Origin: Basidiobolus meristosporus CBS 931.73
Taxonomy: Eukaryota; Basidiobolomycota; Basidiobolomycetes; Basidiobolales; Basidiobolaceae
Length of the DNA stretch: 42,253 nucleotides
Direction: 5' to 3'
Assembly: GCA_002104905.1 (NCBI GenBank)
Contig: MCFE01000720.1
Span: forward strand, 1-42,253
Below are positions 851-42,253 of this stretch, in pieces (within the stretch, counting starts at the first letter, position 1; every line of letters begins with the position of its first letter). The position numbers were made by a program, and so were the translations under genes. The notes beneath the pieces are model-generated. The model was not told the origin of the DNA and did no database searches. It saw only the letters and a list, made by a program, of their open reading frames with translations.

Positions 851-888
851 TTAGGACTGATCAATATGAACATTTAGCTGAGTGGGAG

Positions 889-1590
889 TGTTGTAAAAAT
901 TTGTAATTCCACCTAAGTGTTCACATGGCTTAATCACTCTGATCATTACCTACAAATCCTAGAGAATACTCATCAAATTCCTTGTTTGGATTTACTTGTA
1001 ATATTTTTACCAAAATATTATGTGCCCAAAACATGAAAATTAGATAAGTTGTCCAAACTGCCCCAAAGTTTGCACACATGTTCTTGGTGTTGTAAAAATT
1101 TGCAATTTCACCTAAATATTCACCTAATTTAGTCACTTAGATCATTACCTTTAAGTTCTAGAGAATACTGACCAAATTCTTTGTCAGGACTTACTTAGAA
1201 TATTTTCACCAAGATACCAGGTACCCAGAACATGAAAATTCTCAAAGTTACTCAAACAGCCCCAAACTTTGCATACATGTTCTTGGGACCTTCCTTTACT
1301 TATTCTACATGTTTGTAATGCCAAGACCAGGTAGAAGTATAAATACTACTTTTACATCCAATAAATCATCAAGTGAAAACCACGTAATCTACTTGTTCTC
1401 CCAATCAATTCTATTATCTCCCAGACTCTTACAACACTTGGGACCTTCCTAAGCCTATTCTATTTGTTTGCTATGCCAAGGCCATGTAAAAGTATAAATA
1501 CTACCTTTACATTCAGCAAATCATCACATGAAAACCACAAAATCTACTTGTCCTCCCAGTCACTTCCAATATCTCCAAGACTCCTACATT
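889..1590 (+). repeat. copia 3' LTR, split by a nested LTR
   Basis: It starts TGTTGTAAAAATT directly after the purine tract of the copia remnant. The first half (889-1087) breaks at CTTGG and resumes at 1437 with CTTGGGACC, ending in a decayed CTCCTACA near 1588. The two halves together are about 346 bp, matching the other LTRs of this family in the window. The interruption is the solo LTR at 1088-1436. Confidence 0.8.
1088..1436 (+). mobile_element. Nested solo LTR, copia family, TSD CTTGG
   Basis: A complete 349-bp LTR with 8-bp inverted ends (TGTTGTAA...TTACAACA). It is flanked by the 5-bp target duplication CTTGG at 1083-1087 and 1437-1441. It carries its own TATA box (1338-1343) and AATAAA (1360-1365), so it is organised as a promoter plus polyadenylation unit. 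It inserted into an older LTR of the same family, and the internal region was then lost, presumably by LTR-LTR recombination. Confidence 0.9.
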
Positions 1591-3159: not shown

Positions 3160-4238
3160 GTTTGAGATTCTTCATAGGGTAAATATATACGTCCATTGAG
3201 CCATGTATATCAAGCGGTATTATTGTTCTAAACATGATCCTGGGGAGTAGTGCGCAAAGTGCAGGGGCTTTTAGGCAAGTGAATAACCTGGATTCAAGCA
3301 GTATCTCCAGGTTATTTGAGATTGAGGAAATGCTAGACAGCACCAATCGCTCAGATATATCCACAAGTTCCCAAGACTCACCAGCAACCTCTGGGACTTT
3401 CCTCCAATCATTTAGATATCATACCTAGCGTGAAGCCAGTCAAATGTGGAAATACTTAGGCTTAAGATCCCCCTATCATCCAAATACTCCAGGTTACTTT
3501 TAGTCCTACCACCACTCCAGCAAGAACAAGGTGAGTTTTTTCAAGAGAAGGTCATAGTGTATCAACTATCAGCCCGGTTCTAATTGTCCCAGTGAATGTT
3601 TCAAGCTGGGATCTCTGCATACCTGGCTAACAGCTGCACTGGACTAGAAATGCAGTGTGAGGCGGATCAATTGATATCACAGACCCCTAGAGGGCGCTTC
3701 CCGTAAAACCAGAGATGTAAACAACCTCGCATGATGGTGGGGGAGGTATGCAAAGCCACCACGGTCTTATTTAACCTGGCATTCTTTGAGAGCTGATCAC
3801 GCAGCCAATACACCAGACCCACCTGGCGACTCTGGACGAGTCTCCGAAGGCGAGTCACACGCATATATCACATCACCGCAACTGACGTCTCCGTTCAAGG
3901 AAGCGGTGTATTCCCACTGCGCAGACACCGATCAGTCGTGGAATTAGTTAACTCTTACCTCTACACCAGCTCGGGATCGAAAACCCCGCCCATTGGCTCG
4001 TTTGGCGATCGTCATTTGGGGGGAGGGAGGGGGCCAGAAGGTGGGCCACGAGAATCCGGAAGATTCCAAGAGTAGCGGCCTAGGTTTCAATCATCCTCTG
4101 CGACAACTTGATGGTTTCCGGGATCGTGGGACGGATTGGGGAGGGGGATCCCCAGGGTTGGCGCTGGACATAGGGAGGTTTGACATTACGCGGCCCGGGG
4201 TCTTTTCATAAACCTCGGAGGGTGCGGGTGGCTTGAGC
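3160..4238. other. Transition zone and mannanase upstream region
   Basis: Composition changes from AT-rich repeat sequence to GC-richer sequence at about 3600-4000. A CCATTGG (CCAAT-type) box lies near 3990. Frames here are short or low-complexity (G-rich) and none is convincing. If the mannanase has a spliced leader exon encoding a signal peptide, it would be here, but I cannot identify one. Confidence 0.4.
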
Positions 4239-5417
4239 ATGCAGCAGTACGTGTCGGTTCGTGGGACAGAATTCCGCCTGGGAAGCCAGGCCTTCAGGGT
4301 GATAGGGATGAACTTTTGGTCGGCCATGAACCTAGGGTGCACCCAAGAGAAACACGGGGATGTCGCCCGGTTGGGACGGGAGTTGGACCGACTCTCCGCG
4401 TTGGGCGTGAACACGCTGAGAATCCTCGGGGGTTCGGAAGGGCCCACCTCGGAGCCGTATAGAATCCAGGTTCCACTGATGCCAGAGATGGGCCAGTACG
4501 ACCCTGAAGTCTGGTTAGGTTTGGATAGGCTCCTGGTGGAGATGGGGAAGAGAAACATGAAAGCCATCGTGGTGCTCTCGAACTTCTGGTTTTGGTCTGG
4601 TGGCTTTGGGCAGTTCTTGCAATGGGCTACGGGACAGTCCATACCGTACGATTGGGATACCTTCGAGGATTGGTGTGTGGATTTCTACCGGCAACCGCTG
4701 GCTCAGGAGTACTATTTGAAACATGTCGAAGCGGTCATCACCAGGGTTAACCAAGTGAGTGGGGTGAAGTATTCGGAAGAACCGACTGTCATGGCTTGGG
4801 AGCTGGCAAACGAGCCTAGACAGGCGAAGTCTGGTTGGGTGAGAGAGGTTGGGGGACTTATTCGACGGCTGGCGCCCAGCCAACTGATAGCGCTTGGCCA
4901 GGAGGCCATCGCGGGAAAGGAGGATTTCCTGGAAGTTCATGGGGTGGAGGAGATCGACTTCAGCACCTTACACATTTGGGTCCAGAACTGGGGGATCTAT
5001 GACCCTACCAACGGCACAGAACAACATCTCCGAGAGACGGTCGACTGGGCTTTGAGCAGGTACCGAGACGTGGCCTCTTGGGCGGAGGAACTAAAGAAGC
5101 CACTGGTCTTGGAAGAGTATGGGATGGCCAGAGACGGTTGGCTTCCCAACCAAGGTATATATGACCCCGACACCCCTACGTCCAATCGAGACCGATACTA
5201 CCAGGCCTTGATGGATGAGACGGTCGACTTGATGAAGAAGAAGAAATCCATGGGCCAGATGCTTTGGTCTTGGGCTGGCGAGGGGCGGCCCAATGACGAC
5301 GAGCCAAGATGGTTGGGAGACCCACCACATGAGCCTCCAGGATGGTATAGTATCTTCGACTCAGATGAAACAACCCTCAAGCTTATTCAAGAGCACGTCA
5401 GGAAGGCCCTTTCCTAG
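4239..5417 (+). CDS. Glycoside hydrolase family 5, endo-beta-mannanase-like
   Basis: This 392-residue protein belongs to GH5, most like the beta-1,4-mannanases (subfamily 7), which cut mannan or galactomannan chains with retention of configuration. The catalytic acid/base is Glu192 in WELANEP and the nucleophile is Glu293 in LEEYG. Early motifs FRVIGMNFW and LGVNTLRI are typical of the first barrel strands, and LHIWVQNWG lies between the two glutamates. The full barrel is present in one exon. The ATG at 4239 is the first in frame after a stop at 4209. This start gives no signal peptide, which is odd for a polysaccharide-degrading enzyme. Either an upstream leader exon is missed, the enzyme is cytosolic, or the gene is a transfer that was never fitted with a leader. 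Sure of family, less of substrate and start. Confidence 0.85.
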   Translation: MQQYVSVRGTEFRLGSQAFRVIGMNFWSAMNLGCTQEKHGDVARLGRELDRLSALGVNTLRILGGSEGPTSEPYRIQVPLMPEMGQYDPEVWLGLDRLLVEMGKRNMKAIVVLSNFWFWSGGFGQFLQWATGQSIPYDWDTFEDWCVDFYRQPLAQEYYLKHVEAVITRVNQVSGVKYSEEPTVMAWELANEPRQAKSGWVREVGGLIRRLAPSQLIALGQEAIAGKEDFLEVHGVEEIDFSTLHIWVQNWGIYDPTNGTEQHLRETVDWALSRYRDVASWAEELKKPLVLEEYGMARDGWLPNQGIYDPDTPTSNRDRYYQALMDETVDLMKKKKSMGQMLWSWAGEGRPNDDEPRWLGDPPHEPPGWYSIFDSDETTLKLIQEHVRKALS

Positions 5418-5472
5418 ATCATGCGGCCAGTTTATGTGCATTATCGATGACATAATTTCATGCCGGTACGCG

Positions 5473-5478
5473 TATAAA
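5473..5478 (+). promoter_or_regulatory. TATA box of small secreted-protein gene
   Basis: TATAAA lies 35 bp before the ATG at 5513. If transcription starts about 30 bp downstream of it, the leader is only a few nucleotides long. Confidence 0.55.
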
Positions 5479-5512
5479 TTGACCAAGCCAGCCGGGAGGC
5501 TGCCGAGTAAAG

Positions 5513-5770
5513 ATGAAGTCATTCGCAACCCTCATAGCGCTCTGTCAACTGATCGTTTTCTCTCACCAGCAGTGCATCCATCCGAACGGGGCGTGTGGAA
5601 GTGATGGTGCCGGAGCCTTTTTCTCCTCCATGAACTCGGAGCTGGGGGGATCAACGCCGACTGGCTCCCCGAGAGCGACCCTCCCGCCCACCAACCTCGG
5701 CGTACACAAGCAACCCCTCGGACCATGGCATCTGGTGGTATGTTTAGTGGGTGGACGCGTGGTAATCTAG
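5513..5770 (+). CDS. Small secreted protein, unknown function
   Basis: 85 residues. The first 20 (MKSFATLIALCQLIVFSHQQ) form a good signal peptide, followed by a short region with Cys residues near positions 21 and 28 and then a Gly/Ser/Pro-rich tail. A TATA box precedes it and AATAAA follows at 5792. It converges with another small secreted-protein gene on the minus strand. A GTATGT inside the last 50 bp could be a splice donor, so the C-terminus is uncertain. I do not recognise a family; effector-like or wall-associated roles are possible but unsupported. Confidence 0.5.
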   Translation: MKSFATLIALCQLIVFSHQQCIHPNGACGSDGAGAFFSSMNSELGGSTPTGSPRATLPPTNLGVHKQPLGPWHLVVCLVGGRVVI

Positions 5771-5782
5771 TCCATGTATACT

Positions 5783-5797
5783 TTTATTTCGAATAAA
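5783..5797. terminator. Bidirectional poly(A) signal
   Basis: TTTATTTCGAATAAA is a near-palindrome. It gives AATAAA on the plus strand (5792-5797) for the gene ending at 5770, and AATAAA on the minus strand (5788-5783) for the gene ending at 5881. One short site appears to serve both convergent genes. Confidence 0.6.
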
Positions 5798-5880
5798 CAA
5801 CGGGGCACCCTCAATAACCCTCTAAAAGCAAGTAATCTACATCCTATTTACATCGGTGCTGGGCCACATGCCAAAATTGG

Positions 5881-6162
5881 TCACTCCTCATCGAGCGTCG
5901 CCACGGCCTCCGCTTCTGGACTCAGGGGACTGGGTAGAAGGGACCCATAACTCTCCGCGTAATTCTCGAATTCATTCTCTGCATACTCGTCACCCGGCCT
6001 GTAATCCATGATATTCCGGATCGCCTGTCGCCAGGAGGCGAGCCCTTGATTGCTGGCTGCATGATCGAACACCTCCTGACGGCTGTCCATCCGGACTGGT
6101 AGCCCACTGGCAGAGAACACGAGCACCCCGGCGATAATCCAAACGAGCGGGAGAAAATGCAT
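5881..6162 (-). CDS. Small secreted acidic protein, unknown function
   Basis: 93 residues from the ATG at 6162. I chose this start because MHFLPLVWIIAGVLVFSASG is a clear signal peptide and a TATA box lies 31 bp upstream; the same frame is open further upstream but low-complexity there. The mature part is acidic and ends in an E/A-rich tail. It has no cysteines and no family I recognise. It converges with the secreted-protein gene at 5513. Confidence 0.55.
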   Translation of the reverse strand: MHFLPLVWIIAGVLVFSASGLPVRMDSRQEVFDHAASNQGLASWRQAIRNIMDYRPGDEYAENEFENYAESYGSLLPSPLSPEAEAVATLDEE

Positions 6163-6192
6163 GGTTTGATGTACGGGAGGTGGCCAACCAGA

Positions 6193-6198
6193 TTTATA
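6193..6198 (-). promoter_or_regulatory. TATA box
   Basis: TATAAA on the minus strand, 31 bp before the ATG at 6162. It supports that start. Confidence 0.55.
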
Positions 6199-7345
6199 CC
6201 CAGCATCAGCCGAGCGGCGGTTACTCAAGTAAACACCCGCTGTACCTGGAATAGGAATGCTGAGCTGTCGAATGTATCCTTTTCCTTGCGATGATGGCTT
6301 GAGGATGCTCAGAGGGGAGTGAGATTGGGATAGGGACGGGACGGGACGTGGATGGGGATGGGGGAGGATTTTTTTCGTCCCATAACAACAACTTGATTTG
6401 GCAACACCATGGAGTTGTATGGTTACTACGATCGGCGGAAGATTCGCCACTAGACATTGTAAGCAACCAGACCCTCTTGGCATGGTGCGCGGTCAGGGAG
6501 ATCCCAGAATGTGGAAGTGTGGACCACTGAGCAGAGGGCCTCAGTACAAATCGGGGGATACCCAACTACGGCCATTTAATCAGACCAAAGTAGACGGCTA
6601 GGCTGGTTGTAGAGGCGAATTTCCTCGGGGGCCCATGATTGGCCGAAGCGTGCATTTGCTAAATATTGTCACCAATTGGAATCCACACTTGGCCATTCCC
6701 TCAAACGCAGTTAGCCTACGGGCTATTTTTAGAGATCGATCAGCTTCCAATGCGAATTTGGCTGCATATCATGTCCCAACGCATTCCCATGCTTCTTAAT
6801 CAAGAGGGATTTTTAGGGCCAACGCTTGGAGTTTAGCTAACACCAGCAGTGTAACATGTGGTTGATGTCGCAGGCCAACTCGACGGTATTTATGATTGTA
6901 GCATTTAAGAGCGGACAGTCAAACCTAGGGGTCCAAGGGGCAGCAATGGGTGGGTAATCCCTTTCCCAGCGCGGAAATCTATGCGATGTAACATCAATGT
7001 GCATCCGTCCGCCTACCCTCTGAGGGTTCCCAGGTCCTCTGTGGTCTGGAGATTTCCTAAAATGGTTGGATGCCATTTTGTCGACCGAATGCTTCAAAGA
7101 GGGATCACTCCCCTTTTACATGAGCGAGCAGGATCCAAACTTGGTCGGATCTCGATGTTAGTGATCATTCATCTTCCGATTGATTTGGGTGCTTATGCGA
7201 GAAGAATGGACTTGTAGGAAGCTCAGGTAGTACTACGGGCCGAGCTGTCATTGGTTGTTCCTTTAATACAATGGTTGTAGGACTAGAGGCCATGGCAAGC
7301 CAATCAGAGGGGTGTCGACTGTTCCGGAATGATTGGGAAGTCAAC
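6199..7345. other. No gene seen, intergenic
   Basis: Mixed-composition sequence between divergent genes. Open frames on both strands are short with unremarkable composition. CCAAT-type boxes (ATTGG) recur at several points, suggesting promoter function for one or both sides. Confidence 0.4.
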
Positions 7346-36810: not shown

Positions 36811-37024
36811 TAGTTTATTACAAGTCTTAGCAACTATATGCTTATGATGAATAAACCTGATTTGAATATCTGCGTGACGCTCTTTGCTCTGCAGGTAAAG
36901 AAAGAAAAATTTATATTCTATTTTTATGATCCTCTTTTGTTGGAAGACCTTGAAATGAGGTAGAGCACATCTTATTTGATTACCTTACTTTACACTGGAG
37001 TATAACTCTTTTGCAAATTTTAGT

Positions 37025-37360
37025 GCACTCGCATCCCTTGGCTGACAAGCCAATGGGGCGAAGCTACCATCTGTCGGATTATGGCTGAACGCCTCTAAGT
37101 CAGAATCCGTGCTAGAAGGCGACGATGCTTACCTTCTCCATATTTAGATGAATACAAATAGAGTACTCTGGTAGTGCTCCGGTATCCTAACAGGGGGACG
37201 TTAGCCAAGTAGTGGAAGTGCTGCTTGGTGAGTTCCTGAATTGTAATTTCAAATATTGGAGAGGATAAATCCTTTGCAGACAACTTAAATAAGGAACGGG
37301 GTATTGTAGGCAGTAGAGTAGCCTTGTTGCTACAATCTGCTGAGATTAAGCCTTTTGTTC
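37025..37360 (+). rRNA. LSU (25S/28S) rRNA 3'-end fragment
   Basis: The stretch GAAGCTACCATCTGTCGG, GGATTATGGCTGAACGCC, TCTAAGTCAGAATCCGTG at 37058-37115 and GGGGTATTGTAGGCAGTAGA, GTAGCCTTGTTGCTACAATC, TGCTGAGATTAAGCC at 37298-37352 are the conserved last helices of eukaryotic LSU rRNA. It ends close to the natural 3' end. Only about 335 bp is recognisable and nothing upstream looks like LSU, so it is a truncated rDNA relic or the broken edge of an rDNA unit. Some substitutions (CTACAATCTGC for the usual TTACGATCTGC) suggest it is no longer under selection. Confidence 0.88.
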
Positions 37361-37501
37361 TTCAGGTGGAGAGTACTTTCGGGGTTGGATATATCTGCGC
37401 TGATGGTTTACTTTGCCAAGATTCAATTCCTTGGGGAGCAGTATAATTTTTATTTGGGGGGTTTGAGATGATTGGGGGGATGGGATTGAGGATGGGGGGG
37501 G
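37361..37501. other. rDNA-LINE junction, G-rich
   Basis: After the LSU 3' end come about 95 bp of unknown sequence (possibly rDNA spacer), then a stretch with four G-runs (GGGGGG, GGGGGG, GGG, GGGGGGGG at 37456-37501) separated by TTTGAGATGATT-like pieces. This reads like degenerated telomeric or G-tract seam material immediately in front of element A copy 1. Confidence 0.45.
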
Positions 37502-38145
37502 AGACAGTCACCAACAGGTGAAATCTTTATTTCAGTTGAAACAAAGAAGCCAGCGCTACTGTTGTAGCTTTGATACAAGAGTGTGTAGCTGAGGGGAATT
37601 TGTAGGTAAGTTAATAAGAAGTGATGATAGTTCTTCAGTGCTCAAGACACTGTTCAGTGGGAAGGGGGGTAGCAAGAGAGGTAAGAATGACTTGTCAACA
37701 ACATTAATGGGGGGGAATGTGATAAGGATTGATATTCATCATAAAGGGAGTGTGCTGCTGCAGATATTGCTGCCAAAGGTCTGTCAAGTACTTCAGGTAG
37801 GCCAGCTTGGGTTTTTCTGACTGCAGAATAAATTGAGCAAGCTTCTTGACTTCAGGATCTCCAAGTATAGTTCTCCAGCAGGAGCCTGGTGTAGTGTGGT
37901 GTGTTCTCTTCCAGGCCTTGAATCAGTGGGTTGTTGCAGTTGTGAAGTCTGAGGTATAATCTGGTTCTAAGGTAGAGAAGTCTGATCTTATAGGGCATAA
38001 ACCCAAAAGCACCAAGAATAGCATGTCTGTAGGGGCATTCAGGCAAATGAGGCACCAAGGAGGTAATGCACCATACTGCAAACTTGTCAAGCTTAGTGCA
38101 GTCTCTAGAAGTAAGAGAGAGAAGTGGTAAGCCAAATTCCAGGAC
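37502..38145 (-). mobile_element. Telomeric LINE element A, copy 1 (5'-truncated)
   Basis: Near-identical to 41419-42017 and extends about 45 bp further 5'. On the minus strand it ends with AATAAAGATT, then a stem-loop (TCACC-loop-GGTGA, 37521-37508), GACTGTCT and a C-tract. Its coding frame matches copy 2 (for example FAVWCITS, HAILGAFGFMPYK) but is broken by a one-base insertion near 37920 (CCTTGAATCAG against CCTTAATCAG) and a G-run indel near 37712. At its upstream end, after LEFG codons, the sequence hits TTAGGGT at 38146, taken as the truncation point. Confidence 0.85.
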
Positions 38146-38275: not shown

Positions 38276-38790
38276 CTTTAAATTCCTGTTGGATTACTTT
38301 ACTCTCATTCTTGGTTCTGGTCCCTTAGGGTTAGAATTCCTCCTCCTAACCCTTATCACCCTAACCATAAATATTTTTACCCTACAATTGGCACATTGTC
38401 TGCTGATATAGTGGGCATGTCTGGGCCAATATTTGTCTCCCTATACTGTCCATATGCTCTGTATAAGTCTTGATGACTATTTAATTAATAAATTGTTACT
38501 TTTAATGTATATCTAATAATTAATGGGATTCATCCCAATCTGGCCACAATCCCATATTTTGGTAAGCTTTGGGTACCATAAATTGTGTGGCCCTAATATG
38601 ATAAAAAAATTCATGGCCAATACAAATTTTCTGTAACCCAATTGCTTTTACCAAATATAAAGTGTATCCCAAAGCTCAATATATATTATGGCTATAATAG
38701 AGACTTTATTTGACACCATTGCAACTACTACTTATGTTCTATGCGCACATGTATCCCGTGGGAATTGTAAAACTTAGCCATGTGGTACAA

Positions 38791-39107
38791 AAGTGCTTTT
38801 ATTTTTCATCATGATAGTTTTACATGAGTTCCTAACGCACTTTGAAAGTACGCAGTAGCCATACCCCAACAGGTTTTAAGGATGTCTACTAGATACATCT
38901 ACTTGTGTCTAGCAGGAGCCATCAATCATCAGCCATGCGGTAATAAAGTGCTTTTATTTTTCATCATGATAGTTTTACATGAGTCCCTAACGCACTTTTA
39001 TAGTGCGCGGTAACCATACCCCAACAGGTTTTAAGGATACCCACTTGCTACGTTTACTTGTGTCTAGCGGGAGTTATCAATCATCAGCCACGCAGTAATA
39101 AAGTGCT
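38791..39107. repeat. 155-bp subtelomeric tandem repeat, two units plus stub
   Basis: Units begin AAAGTGCTTTTATTTTTCATC; AAGTGCTT recurs at 38791, 38946 and 39101, exactly 155 bp apart. The third unit stops after AAGTGCTT and continues as TTAGGG repeat. Units differ by about 10%. Each holds ACCCCAACAGGTTTTAAGG and TCATCATGATAG, with no open frame. Confidence 0.85.
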
Positions 39108-39159
39108 TAGGGTTAGGGGGGGAGACAGTCTTAGGGCTAGGGTTAGGGGTTAGGGGGGG
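39108..39159 (+). other. Interstitial telomere seam with LINE scrap
   Basis: TTAGGGTTAGGGGGGG (39108-39122) cuts the 155-bp repeat. AGACAGTC follows (39123-39130): the last bases of element A. Then TTAGGGCTAGGGTTAGGGG, TTAGGGGGGG (to 39159) and element B. Two rounds of telomere addition with a minimal retroelement fragment between them are readable here. Confidence 0.8.
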
Positions 39160-39245
39160 ATGATCATCACCAAAGGGTGAAATCTTTATTTAAATAATAA
39201 ATAAAGAAGCCAAATTTGAATATGAATATCTGAGATGCAGGAAGC

Positions 39246-40043
39246 CTACAAGATAAACTTGGACTTTGCTGTATCCCAAATATCCTCAATATCAAAGTCT
39301 AGAGGAGAGTGTAGCAAGACTGCTTGTTCACTGTAGTATTTCTTGAGGAAGTTTGTGACTTGAAGGGAAGGAGAGTTTTTCAACAAGCTGGTAAATCTTT
39401 TGAGGAGTTCTTTTTCTAGAGAGAATGGCACAAAGAGTGGAATGTCTAAATGATGTCTGAATATATGCTCTGAGAGCTCCCAATCCAGCATATTTTTGAC
39501 TTCTTCTGTAAAATCTTCAACAATATCTTTGTCAAGAATAACTTCCAAGAGATCCCTGGCAATGTACTGAATGTTAATAATCTTAGGCATATGAATACCT
39601 AGGTCCTTGAGGTAGTTTCTTTGTTCTGATATTGGGAGATATCCTGCATTTCTGAAATAGCAAACAGCCCAGTTGGCAGTAGGAGTATCAGGGCTGACAG
39701 GGAATCTTCTTCTGGCTTTAAAGTGCACTGGCTTAGGAGACTGTCTTGATGGAAGGGCAGCTGGATTTGGATGAGCTTGAAGTGCTTGGGAGTAGGTTTG
39801 AGTACAAGTAGTAGAAGTTCCTGGTTGCTGAGAATTTTCAGATTGACTGGATGAAGAGCTAATTGAGGGGCTACAAGGTAAGGAAGAAGCTGAAAGAGAA
39901 GTGGAGAGGGCTGGGTGAAGTTCAGAAAGAGTTTTGAAAAGAATTTGGATCTGAGATTTCAACATTGAGTTTTCAGATTCAAGAAGAGAAACTCTTTGTT
40001 CAAGGTAAGAAGTCTGTAAAGAGTGAAAGTTGGGTAAAGACAT
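39246..40043 (-). CDS. ORF1/Gag-like protein of telomeric element B
   Basis: 265 residues, uninterrupted. Residues about 8-45 form a leucine-zipper-like coiled coil (YLEQRVSLLESENSMLKSQI), then a Ser/Gln/Pro-rich linker (45-105) with a basic patch (KPVHFKARRRF), and a folded C-terminal half with WAVCYFRNAGYLPISEQRNY and ARDLLEVILDKDIVEDF. Coiled coil, basic linker and C-terminal domain is the layout of LINE ORF1 proteins that bind the element RNA as trimers or multimers. No zinc knuckle is seen. A TATA box in the adjacent monomer lies about 100 bp upstream of the ATG. An intact frame in a repetitive region suggests recent activity. Assignment to ORF1 is by layout and position, not by a recognised domain. 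Confidence 0.7.
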   Translation of the reverse strand: MSLPNFHSLQTSYLEQRVSLLESENSMLKSQIQILFKTLSELHPALSTSLSASSLPCSPSISSSSSQSENSQQPGTSTTCTQTYSQALQAHPNPAALPSRQSPKPVHFKARRRFPVSPDTPTANWAVCYFRNAGYLPISEQRNYLKDLGIHMPKIINIQYIARDLLEVILDKDIVEDFTEEVKNMLDWELSEHIFRHHLDIPLFVPFSLEKELLKRFTSLLKNSPSLQVTNFLKKYYSEQAVLLHSPLDFDIEDIWDTAKSKFIL

Positions 40044-40099
40044 GGAAGTAGTAAATAAGAAGAAAGGAGTAGTTGGGGTGGGAGGGTGGGAAAATAGGT

Positions 40100-41403
40100 A
40101 AGAAGAAAAGAGAGGAAAGATCTGAAATTGAAAATCTCAGAATTTATAGATGGATGGACAAGGGTAGAGGATTGATTAATCCAGGGTTAGGGAAAAATAG
40201 GTAAGAAGAAAAGAGAGGGGGAAAAATAGGTAAGAAGAAAAGAGAGGAAAGATCTGAAATTGAAAATCTCAGAATTTATAGATGGATGGACAAGGGTAGA
40301 GGATTGATTAATCCAGGGTTAGGGAAAAATAGGTAAGAAGAAAAGAGAGGGGGAAAAATAGGTAAGAAGAAAAGAGAGGAAAGATCTGAAATTGAAAATC
40401 TCAGAATTTATAGATGGATGGACAAGGGTAGAGGATTGATTAATCCAGGGTTAGGGAAAAATAGGTAAGAAGAAAAGAGAGGGGAAAAATAGGTAAGAAG
40501 AAAAGAGAGGAAAGATCTGAAATTGAAAATCTCAGAATTTATAGATGGATGGACAAGGGTAGAGGATTGATTAATCCAGGGTTAGGGAAAAATAGGTAAG
40601 AAGAAAAGAGAGGGGGAAAAATAGGTAAGAAGAAAAGAGAGGAAAGATCTGAAATTGAAAATCTCAGAATTTATAGATGGATGGACAAGGGTAGAGGATT
40701 GATTAATCCAGGGTTAGGGAAAAATAGGTAAGAAGAAAAGAGAGGGGGAAAAATAGGTAAGAAGAAAAGAGAGGAAAGATCTGAAATTGAAAATCTCAGA
40801 ATTTATAGATGGATGGACAAGGGTAGAGGATTGATTAATCCAGGGTTAGGGAAAAATAGGTAAGAAGAAAAGAGAGGGGGAAAAATAGGTAAGAAGAAAA
40901 GAGAGGAAAGATCTGAAATTGAAAATCTCAGAATTTATAGATGGATGGACAAGGGTAGAGGATTGATTAATCCAGGGTTAGGGAAAAATAGGTAAGAAGA
41001 AAAGAGAGGGGGAAAAATAGGTAAGAAGAAAAGAGAGGAAAGATCTGAAATTGAAAATCTCAGAATTTATAGATGGATGGACAAGGGTAGAGGATTGATT
41101 AATCCAGGGTTAGGGAAAAATAGGTAAGAAGAAAAGAGAGGGGAAAAATAGGTAAGAAGAAAAGAGAGGAAAGATCTGAAATTGAAAATCTCAGAATTTA
41201 TAGATGGATGGACAAGGGTAGAGGATTGATTAATCCAGGGTTAGGGAAAAATAGGTAAGAAGAAAAGAGAGGGGAAAAATAGGTAAGAAGAAAAGAGAGG
41301 AAAGATCTGAAATTGAAAATCTCAGAATTTATAGATGGATGGACAAGGGTAGAGGATTGATTAATCCAGGGTTAGGGAAAAATAGGTAAGAAGAAAAGAG
41401 AGG
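40100..41403 (-). repeat. Promoter-like monomer array, about 10 x 132 bp
   Basis: AGATCTGAAATTG recurs with its TCT at 40121, 40253, 40385, 40516, 40648, 40780, 40912, 41044, 41175 and 41306 (spacing 131 or 132; the 1-bp change is a G-run of 4 or 5). Units are otherwise nearly identical. On the minus strand each has CTATAAATTCTG, a TATA box, and CCCTAACCCTGG, a telomeric motif. Each also contains two copies of a 27-bp purine stretch (AATAGGTAAGAAGAAAAGAG). The last unit is incomplete and ends in GGGTTAGGG at 41402. Confidence 0.93.
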
Positions 41404-41418
41404 GTTAGGGGGGGGGGG
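41402..41418 (+). other. Telomere seam between elements B and A copy 2
   Basis: GGGTTAGGG followed by a run of 11 G in total, then AGACAGTCACC of element A. This is the junction expected if element A cDNA was primed from a telomeric G-strand end. Confidence 0.8.
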
Positions 41419-42017
41419 AGACAGTCACCAACAGGTGAAATCTTTATTTCAGTTGAAACAAAGAAGCCAGCGCTACTGTTGTAGCTTTGATACAAGAGTG
41501 TGTAGCTGAGGGGAATTTGTAGGTAAGTTAATAAGAAGTGATGATAGCTCTTCAGTGCTCAAGACACTGTTCAGTGGGAAGGGGGGTAGCAAGAGAGGTA
41601 AGAATGACTTGTGAACAACATTAATGAGGGGAATGTGATAAGGATTGATATTCATCATAAATGGAGTGTGCTGCTGCAGATATTGCTGCCAAAGGTCTGT
41701 CAAGTATTTCAGGTAGGCCAGCTTGGGTTTTTCTGACTGCAGAATAAAGTGAGCAAACTTCTTGACTTCAGGATCTCCAAGTATAGTTCTCCAGCAGGAG
41801 CCAGGTGTTGTGTGGTGTGTTCTCTTCCAGGCCTTAATCAGTGGGTTGTTGCAGTTGTGAAGTCTGAGGTATAATCTGGTTCTAAGGTAGAGAAGTCTGA
41901 TCTTATAGGGCATAAACCCAAAAGCACCAAGAATAGCATGTCTGTAGGGGCATTCAGGCAAATGAGGCACCAAGGAGGTAATGCACCATACTGCAAACTT
42001 GTCAAGCTTAGTGCAGT
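41419..42017 (-). mobile_element. Telomeric LINE element A, copy 2 (5'-truncated)
   Basis: About 600 bp, nearly identical to 37502-38101. Same 3' stem-loop (41438-41425) and C-tract. Its 5' side is cut at GTGCAGT and capped directly by TTAGGG repeats. Because the frame is intact here and broken in copy 1, this is the younger or less decayed copy. Confidence 0.88.
41473..42017 (-). CDS. C-terminal part of a LINE ORF2-like protein (partial)
   Basis: An open frame runs from the telomere junction to the stop at 41473, about 181 residues; an internal Met at 41973 is not the true start. It opens TKLDKFAVWCITSLVPHLPE, continues HAILGAFGFMPYKIRLLYLR and LRLYLRLHNCNN-type residues, and ends in a Leu/Pro/Ser-rich tail. 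The pattern (R)-AILGAFG-x-MP-x-K-x-R-x-LYL-x-x-RLYLRL resembles the region after the RT core in fungal and protist LINE polyproteins. The RT active site itself (F/YADD) is upstream and missing through 5' truncation, so the RT assignment is inferred. Confidence 0.6.
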
Positions 42018-42253
42018 AGGGTTAGGGTTAGGGTTAGGGTTAGGGTTAGGGTTAGGGTTAGGGTTAGGGTTAGGGTTAGGGTTAGGGTTAGGGTTAGGGT
42101 TAGGGTTAGGGTTAGGGTTAGGGTTAGGGTTAGGGTTAGGGTTAGGGTTAGGGTTAGGGTTAGGGTTAGGGTTAGGGTTAGGGTTAGGGTTAGGGTTAGG
42201 GTTAGGGTTAGGGTTAGGGTTAGGGTTAGGGTTAGGGTTAGGGTTAGGGTTAG
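42018..42253 (+). repeat. Telomere, (TTAGGG)n
   Basis: About 39 uninterrupted TTAGGG units up to the last base, G-rich strand running 5'-3' outwards. This marks a true chromosome end. No variant repeats are visible. Confidence 0.99.

Follow-up and report, generated by a model that had tools for sequence, protein, structure and literature searches.

At one chromosome end of the fungus Basidiobolus meristosporus CBS 931.73, represented by contig MCFE01000720.1 (C1003; 42,253 nucleotides (nt), this whole stretch being referred to as the window), we identified a telomeric non-long-terminal-repeat (non-LTR) retroelement, element B, which carries an open reading frame (ORF) of the ORF1 type and no reverse transcriptase (RT). 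In the assembly, which comprises 89.0 Mb in 1,311 contigs, its 3' end is of the same type as that of two families which do encode RT, A and C, and of two further families without RT: B2, a relative of the window's own family B1, and the short element D. Probably, A and C are autonomous, while B1, B2 and D are non-autonomous, and for all five the RT of A or C makes the copies that are added to chromosome ends. A preliminary description of the window had proposed a pair of elements resembling HeT-A and TART, and our analysis supports this reading, with at least five families in place of a pair and RT presumably acting in trans.

Element B encodes an ORF1-type protein

Element B and its parts lie at the following positions of the window:

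39153-41407, minus strand: element B (family B1), an ORF1-only telomeric non-LTR element with its 3' end at 39153 and its 5' end at 41407
39246-40043, minus strand: ORF1-type protein of B1, 265 amino acids (aa)
40082-41404, minus strand: 5' array of ten 132-bp monomers with 99% matches (tandem repeat scan), each with one GGGTTAGGG (read by eye)

B had been described as an element with an intact ORF1-like gene, several 5' monomers and an A-like 3' end, and this composition was recovered in full, the 3'-terminal 39 nt being 82% identical to those of A. The 5' monomers may act as promoters. The B1 protein consists of an N-terminal coiled-coil-like stretch, a serine-rich linker and a C-terminal domain that shares homology with the ORF1 proteins of both A and C. 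Residues 12-42 of the coiled-coil-like stretch matched bZIP_1 below the cut-off, and no Pfam family matched the protein above its cut-off. The homology to the ORF1 proteins of A, C and related elements covers the C-terminal approximately 150 residues (150 columns), with phmmer scores of 33-34 bits for B1 against C, 48-50 bits for B1 against A, and 42-63 bits for B2 against C and A. Comparison with ORF1 of the RT-bearing elements yielded an hhalign probability of 99 and a BLASTP E-value of 4e-16, together with a second, weak match over the coiled-coil stretch, and places the ORF with LINE (long interspersed nuclear element) ORF1 rather than with an unrelated host gene family. On its N side the B protein is shorter than its ORF1 relatives, three of which possess a zinc-ribbon-like N part.

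The genome contains at least 42 copies of B1 (matches of at least 300 bp, window included; two of 44 rows were shorter, and 40 of 133 candidates were scored), so that the window's element B has at least 41 further matches of this length, with identities of 92-98%. All 42 matches begin at the 3' end of the element, and 36 extend through the start codon and thus include the whole ORF; in none of the 42 scored matches was an ORF2 or an RT found between the ORF and the 3' end, and no B copy with its own RT was encountered. The ORF is intact in 11 of 12 copies examined. For a non-random set of the at least 42 copies, consisting of the window and its seven best matches plus four copies picked from the group with 92-93% identity, the ratio of nonsynonymous to synonymous substitutions (dN/dS, Nei-Gojobori) was 0.29 within the first group (28 pairs) and 0.22 between the groups (24 pairs, not independent of each other). 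Thus, ORF1 of B1 is under purifying selection, with a dN/dS of about 0.2, suggesting that B needs its own ORF1 product.

A second ORF1-only family of the same design, B2 (locus L031), has an ORF of 242 aa and a 5' region which is 81-82% identical to that of B1. Between the B1 and B2 ORFs, dN is 0.47 and dS 2.4, the latter being near saturation; the homologous 5' regions and the dN value indicate that the ORF1-only form is old. Both database relatives returned for the B ORF come from Basidiobolus ranarum (61% identity with 99% query coverage, and 70% identity with 40% coverage), and the former, with 269 aa, is nearly of the length of the B1 protein. A candidate third ORF1-only family in locus L129 was rejected, as it has no ORF of 80 aa.

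These data also bear on the possibility that B arose from a LINE by deletion, that its ORF is a mere passenger, and that it spreads as a defective copy in the manner of MoTeR2. Such an origin would account for the absence of ORF2 and for the 3' end type common to B and the RT-bearing elements. It is nevertheless improbable, given the purifying selection on the ORF, the age of the ORF1-only form, the nearly equal length of the relative in B. ranarum and the shortness of the matches (18 nt or less) between the 5' monomers of B1 and A. Nor does B look as if it had arisen from A by deletion.

The RT-bearing elements A and C

Besides B, the window contains the following elements and repeats:

42017-42253, plus strand: terminal telomere array of about 39 TTAGGG units (tandem repeat scan)
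41413-42017, minus strand: element A, 5'-truncated copy (positions 1-605 of the A reference) with the 3' end and the last part of ORF2
41473-41973, minus strand: C-terminal ORF2 fragment, 166 aa from a TTG, frame open up to the telomere junction
37496-38142, minus strand: second 5'-truncated copy of A (positions 1-645 of the A reference)
39116-39130, minus strand: stub comprising 15 nt of the 3' end of A (GGGGGGGAGACAGTC), with TTAGGG-type repeats after it (read by eye)

All of these elements, like B, reside on the minus strand and therefore direct their 5' ends toward the chromosome end, in line with the common orientation of A and B noted in the preliminary description. Its statement that TTAGGG repeats both cap and separate the two elements holds for the terminal cap; the gap between B and A is a single telomere-like unit (GGGTTAGGGG...) and no array. 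The two A copies are 97-100% identical in three blocks, which, together with the 41 further genomic matches of B, shows that the elements of the window are not due to chance. The 15-nt stub probably represents an abortive addition of A.

The fragment next to the telomere had been taken for the C-terminal part of an ORF2 protein. Accordingly, its open frame corresponds to the end of an ORF2 of 922 aa which is complete in a long copy of A at another locus (L029), and the window copy is thus a 5'-truncated one. In L029, about eight 5' units of roughly 99 bp (match spacing 99-100) are followed by ORF1, the complete ORF2 and the 3' end, and a telomere directly caps the 5' side. ORF1 of this copy is split over two overlapping frames (L029 4356-5926); its N part has a zinc-ribbon-like cysteine motif (read by eye) with Pfam matches under the cut-off, and the C-terminal part of the A ORF1 is 98% identical (186/190) to a protein of B. 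meristosporus CBS 931.73. ORF2 of A matches RVT_1 (2.6e-25) and Exo_endo_phos_2 (5e-4, beneath its curated cut-off) and contains GDLN, SDH and FADD motifs, of which we take GDLN and SDH to be the endonuclease motifs. With its 5' monomers, ORF1, ORF2 and 5' truncations, element A is, by sequence, a LINE of the APE (apurinic/apyrimidinic endonuclease) type. Among the best 50 of 1,388 first-look candidates, 46 ORF2 matches of A lack an internal stop, so that a source of RT is at hand.

The ORF2 of family C (L030, L033) is 47% identical to that of A and matches RVT_1 with 1.3e-20; in L030 it is split across two frames (3476-6321). In an RT tree of 60 rows, which used 58 of 84 matches, A, C and the database proteins P0003-P0007 form one isolated clade on a branch of 2.36, the five database proteins grouping with either A or C; the tree was calculated without named reference clades and hence gives the clade no name. 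The closest solved structure was that of LINE-1 ORF2p (50.8 bits). Putatively, database proteins of the ORF1 and ORF2 types occur together on two contigs.

Some further features surround the elements of the window. The 3' end of a large-subunit rRNA gene resides inside the subtelomere (36986-37369, plus strand; 143.5 bits, Rfam), the only Rfam match between 32000 and 37600, and the first A copy begins about 125 nt past this fragment. A 155-bp tandem repeat of 2.1 copies (38776-39108, plus strand) is located immediately ahead of the A stub. At the far end of the window (888-1588), two two-copy tandem repeats of 199 and 155 bp adjoin each other, and by eye the first unit of this region appears to recur near elements at another locus (L007, around 370).

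A common 3' end and the short element D

The 3' end of element B is folded as follows:

39153-39216, minus strand: 3' end of B1, comprising two hairpins and a C-tract (fold z -3.06)
39183-39207, minus strand: hairpin 1, with arms 39183-39192 and 39198-39207
39167-39180, minus strand: hairpin 2 (UCACC CUUU GGUGA)

Two hairpins followed by a C-rich tail are common to at least five families: two encode RT (A and C), two have ORF1 alone (B1 and B2), and one, D, is short and SINE-like (short interspersed nuclear element-like). The 3' ends of these five families gave fold z values from -2.4 to -3.7. As read from the DNA, the genomic 3' end is a C-tract followed by UAACC (in RNA letters). The 3' ends of B1 and A or C are 74-77% identical over about 60 nt. 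Among all families, B1 is 73-78% identical to the four others, while B2 is nearest to D (85%) and C (83%); on the basis of these identities, an origin of the B1 3' end from C and of the B2 3' end from A was rejected.

In the collection of hairpin 1 sequences the search had fixed most arm bases, and pairs 1-5 were fixed and are uninformative. Pairs 6-9 had one free side, and 73 of their 80 cells pair; pair 6 is G-U in 4 and A-U in 16 cases. The last pair, which was freely searched, differs between families: it is C-G in 4, A-U in 5 and G-C in 10 of 20 distinct ends, and unpaired in one. Of 13 aligned ends, 12 preserve the stem of hairpin 2, whose loop is variable and measures 4-6 nt. A pattern derived from hairpin 2 occurs 1,554 times in the genome (1,429 forward, 125 reverse), a lower bound, since a number of B1 copies, such as those in L124 and L125, escape it; the reversed pattern, used as a control, does not occur at all. 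Of these matches, 1,235 (79%) are located within 14 nt after a TTAGGGG. By their loop letters, the first 100 listed 3' ends comprise 50 of A, 29 of D, 12 of the B2 type, 6 of C and 3 of B1.

Element D is represented by the following copies, among others:

L059, 974-1499: copy of D
L005, 428-957: copy of D
L005, 955-1484: copy of D

D has a length of about 525 nt, and two copies lack any ORF over 58 aa. The start of its sense strand has motifs similar to the A and B boxes of RNA polymerase III promoters, 43 nt apart and with one mismatch each to what we take to be the consensus. D as a plain tRNA derivative was rejected: whatever the threshold, ARAGORN made no call for the heads of six D copies, whereas some of 200 shuffled sequences gave calls at low thresholds. 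Against Rfam, D gave only a weak chance match, and no tRNA fold was found.

Location and orientation at chromosome ends

In this one genome, contig ends had to stand in for chromosome ends where TTAGGG repeats are missing. Contrary to what a mostly internal element would show, 41 of the 42 B1 copies reside within 10 kb of the contig end that is faced by their 5' end, and so do all 35 on contigs of more than 40 kb. For A, the same applies to 24 of 27 copies, these being the matches, out of 44, with known contig extent, the minus-strand ones having been chosen on purpose. Among the first 100 matches to the hairpin 2 pattern, 38 are on contigs of more than 100 kb (11 contigs); 33 of the 38 lie within 10 kb and all 38 within 25 kb of an end, with an expected share within 10 kb of 4.9% for these contigs. 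Conversely, on all six contigs bearing (TTAGGG)10 in the list up to C25, the 3' end of an element lies no more than 3 kb from the array: A on C1 (with 56 other bases in between) and C2, D on C21, and B2 on C22, C23 and C25. On C23, about 950 mostly unassigned bases separate a B2 piece from the main telomere array. Finally, no reversed element segment was found in 30 closely studied loci, which had mostly been fetched for matching A or B and two of which, from left contig ends, had been turned beforehand. Together with the 1,554 3' ends, this bears out the many subtelomeric copies in one orientation that were expected if the preliminary description was correct.

The placement of B1 also argues against the B protein being a host telomere protein that became joined to mobile 3' ends. 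Purifying selection on the ORF and its conservation in the sister species B. ranarum would agree with such a domestication; given the dispersal of B1 as 42 copies, all but one at outward-facing positions near contig ends, and the homology to LINE ORF1, we consider this highly improbable.

Junctions and mode of addition

Among the copies, 3' ends are constant and 5' ends variable, as expected if reverse transcription starts at the 3' end of the RNA. Among 83 ordered pairs of element segments, there was no true resumption of a disrupted element past an insert, the single flagged pair being due to a D piece misassigned to C; hence the elements look added to ends and not inserted inside. At 70 junctions from the 30 loci, complete TTAGGG units ahead of the (TTA)GGGG of the element numbered none in 48 cases, one in 13 and two to four in 7, with 2 unclassified (44, 11, 8 and 7 in a looser count of the same junctions). 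After collapsing repeated junctions, 64 distinct ones remained, with no unit at 43, one at 13, two to four at 7 and 1 unclassified. The 43 zero-unit junctions fit an attachment to eroded ends. Telomere-like letters directly precede 5 of the 48 zero-unit junctions counted before collapsing. They are absent from 38 distinct zero-unit junctions, in which the base before the tail is G in 22, C in 13, T in 3 and A in none. The excess of G (22/38 against 27% expected, p 5e-5, the value before collapsing being 1e-6; 19/34, p 3e-4, without the elements' own ends) is what a G-ended primer pairing with the C-rich RNA tail would give. A, which makes up 30% of bases, never precedes the tail at these 38 junctions. 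Short stubs (15-56 nt) occur in the window, L002 and L011, with either TTAGGG-type letters or the TTAGGGG of the next element after them; they look like the products of aborted copying.

A model of terminal addition can be outlined. The RT of one of the autonomous APE-type LINEs, A or C, would recognize the two-hairpin 3' end common to the RNAs of all families, including those of the non-autonomous partners B1, B2 and D. The C-rich tail of the RNA (CCCCCUAA) would pair with a few G or TTAGGG bases of an eroded chromosome end, whose 3'-OH would prime the first strand. Frequent early stops of copying would leave 5'-truncated copies, to which telomerase would afterwards add TTAGGG. B would take only the RT in trans, its own ORF1 protein presumably coating B RNA and bringing it to chromosome ends; the hairpins and CCCCUAA would be the entry requirement, and B and D would ride along. 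The coexistence of telomerase-type repeats with the elements, as described previously, is confirmed by the terminal TTAGGG array and by matches to Telomerase_RBD on contig C880, where this domain is divided between two segments scoring 40.5 and 34.7 bits, the latter interrupted by one stop.

Several observations weigh against this model. D breaks two pairs of hairpin 1, two A copies on contigs of more than 40 kb do not fit the general placement (one is located mid-contig on C558, one is reversed on C726), and within the second group of B1 ORFs, which belong to the non-random sample, dN/dS is 0.52 (3 pairs with few changes). In addition, ORF2 retains its GDLN and SDH motifs, making an endonuclease cut possible, and one to four telomere units are kept at 20 of the 64 distinct junctions. 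Both findings would be accounted for if the elements were inserted into telomere arrays after an endonuclease cut, in the fashion of TRAS and SART, and did not attach to eroded ends. Since 43 of the 64 distinct junctions lack a complete unit and disrupted elements do not continue beyond the insert, such a route appears unlikely.

The remaining counterevidence concerns copying between chromosome ends. C22, C23 and C25 (L128, L129 and L130) carry B2 cut at nearly the same place before the TTAGGG repeats, which may reflect either such copying or a preferred stop, and in L014 (281-512) a short B1-D junction appears to be duplicated in tandem. Recombination or break-induced copying might hence be the main mode of spread, as has been shown for MoTeR arrays (PMC7367193, PMC8381367), with retrotransposition being rare or past. 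Again, we regard this as unlikely: the 3' ends are constant and the 5' ends variable, the families are mixed in differing orders at different ends, and the best ORF2 copies of A are mostly intact. Terminal addition by the RT of A or C remains our preferred reading.

Comparison with known telomeric retroelements

TRAS and SART are non-LTR elements of the APE type, and we know of no ORF1-only partner of theirs. In Bombyx, they are LINEs of the telomere repeats (PMC10088271); unlike these, which insert within the repeat, the Basidiobolus elements adjoin no complete unit at most of the junctions examined. The FoTeR elements of Fusarium oxysporum are telomeric non-LTR elements with a restriction-enzyme-like endonuclease, and are similar in having upstream tandem repeats and telomeric junctions; the main text of that report contains neither 'non-autonomous' nor 'ORF1' (PMC12857005). 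Among the open-licence papers listed, neither telomeric elements of Basidiobolus nor an ORF1-only telomeric element of any fungus is described in a title or in the beginning of an abstract, and the string 'telomer' is absent from one Entomophthorales genome preprint (PMC10515909).

Among fungal systems, MoTeR1 and MoTeR2 of Magnaporthe/Pyricularia are similar in being telomeric, oriented with the 5' end outward and separated by TTAGGG, and in including a partner without RT (PMC7367193). However, the RT of MoTeR1 resembles that of SLACS/CRE elements (PMC7367193), a type with a restriction-like endonuclease, whereas the RT described here is of the APE type according to its RVT_1 and Exo_endo_phos_2 matches and its GDLN and SDH motifs. 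MoTeR2 shares 860 bp at the 5' end and 77 bp at the 3' end with MoTeR1 and has an unrelated middle part of 786 bp (PMC7367193). In contrast, the B protein is homologous to the ORF1 protein of its partner, and the 5' monomers of B1 are distinct from those of A (the 5' end of C was not seen).

Closest in its way of working is HeT-A of Drosophila, which occurs together with TART and TAHRE and is an ORF1-only element that is arranged head-to-tail at chromosome ends, attaches terminally and uses the Pol (APE and RT) of its neighbours. Its 3' end consists of oligo(A), and it exists in the absence of telomerase (PMC5537684, PMC4700185). Like HeT-A, B possesses only ORF1 (gag), with no RT in any of the 42 scored matches, and is confined to ends in one orientation (41 of 42 within 10 kb). 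The likeness appears to be one of function, and we do not claim descent from HeT-A; relatives of B were seen solely in Basidiobolus or in unnamed sources. If our reading is correct, B represents a second telomeric lineage of the ORF1-only kind, apparently independent and subject to purifying selection, in a genome in which likely RT donors and telomerase are both present. The system thus links fungal telomere biology to terminal retrotransposition and allows one to ask how an ORF1-only element and an RT donor come to be partners, and which of the two, ORF1 or RT, determines that chromosome ends are the target, while the common 3' hairpins make recognition in trans directly testable. It might tentatively be proposed, with slightly less than even confidence, that two systems of end maintenance coexist in Basidiobolus: telomerase, which would cap the ends, and a retroelement community with one 3' hairpin code, which would re-extend ends that have lost their repeats. 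This community would be made up of two families that donate RT, at least two with ORF1 alone and one resembling SINEs, and the way of life of HeT-A would thus have arisen a second time with telomerase kept. Basidiobolus differs from HeT-A in several respects: hairpins and a C-tract, as read from genomic DNA, take the place of the oligo(A) 3' end, terminal TTAGGG repeats and a telomerase-domain match coexist with the elements, and elements with ORF1 alone form at least two families and are accompanied by a SINE-like family.

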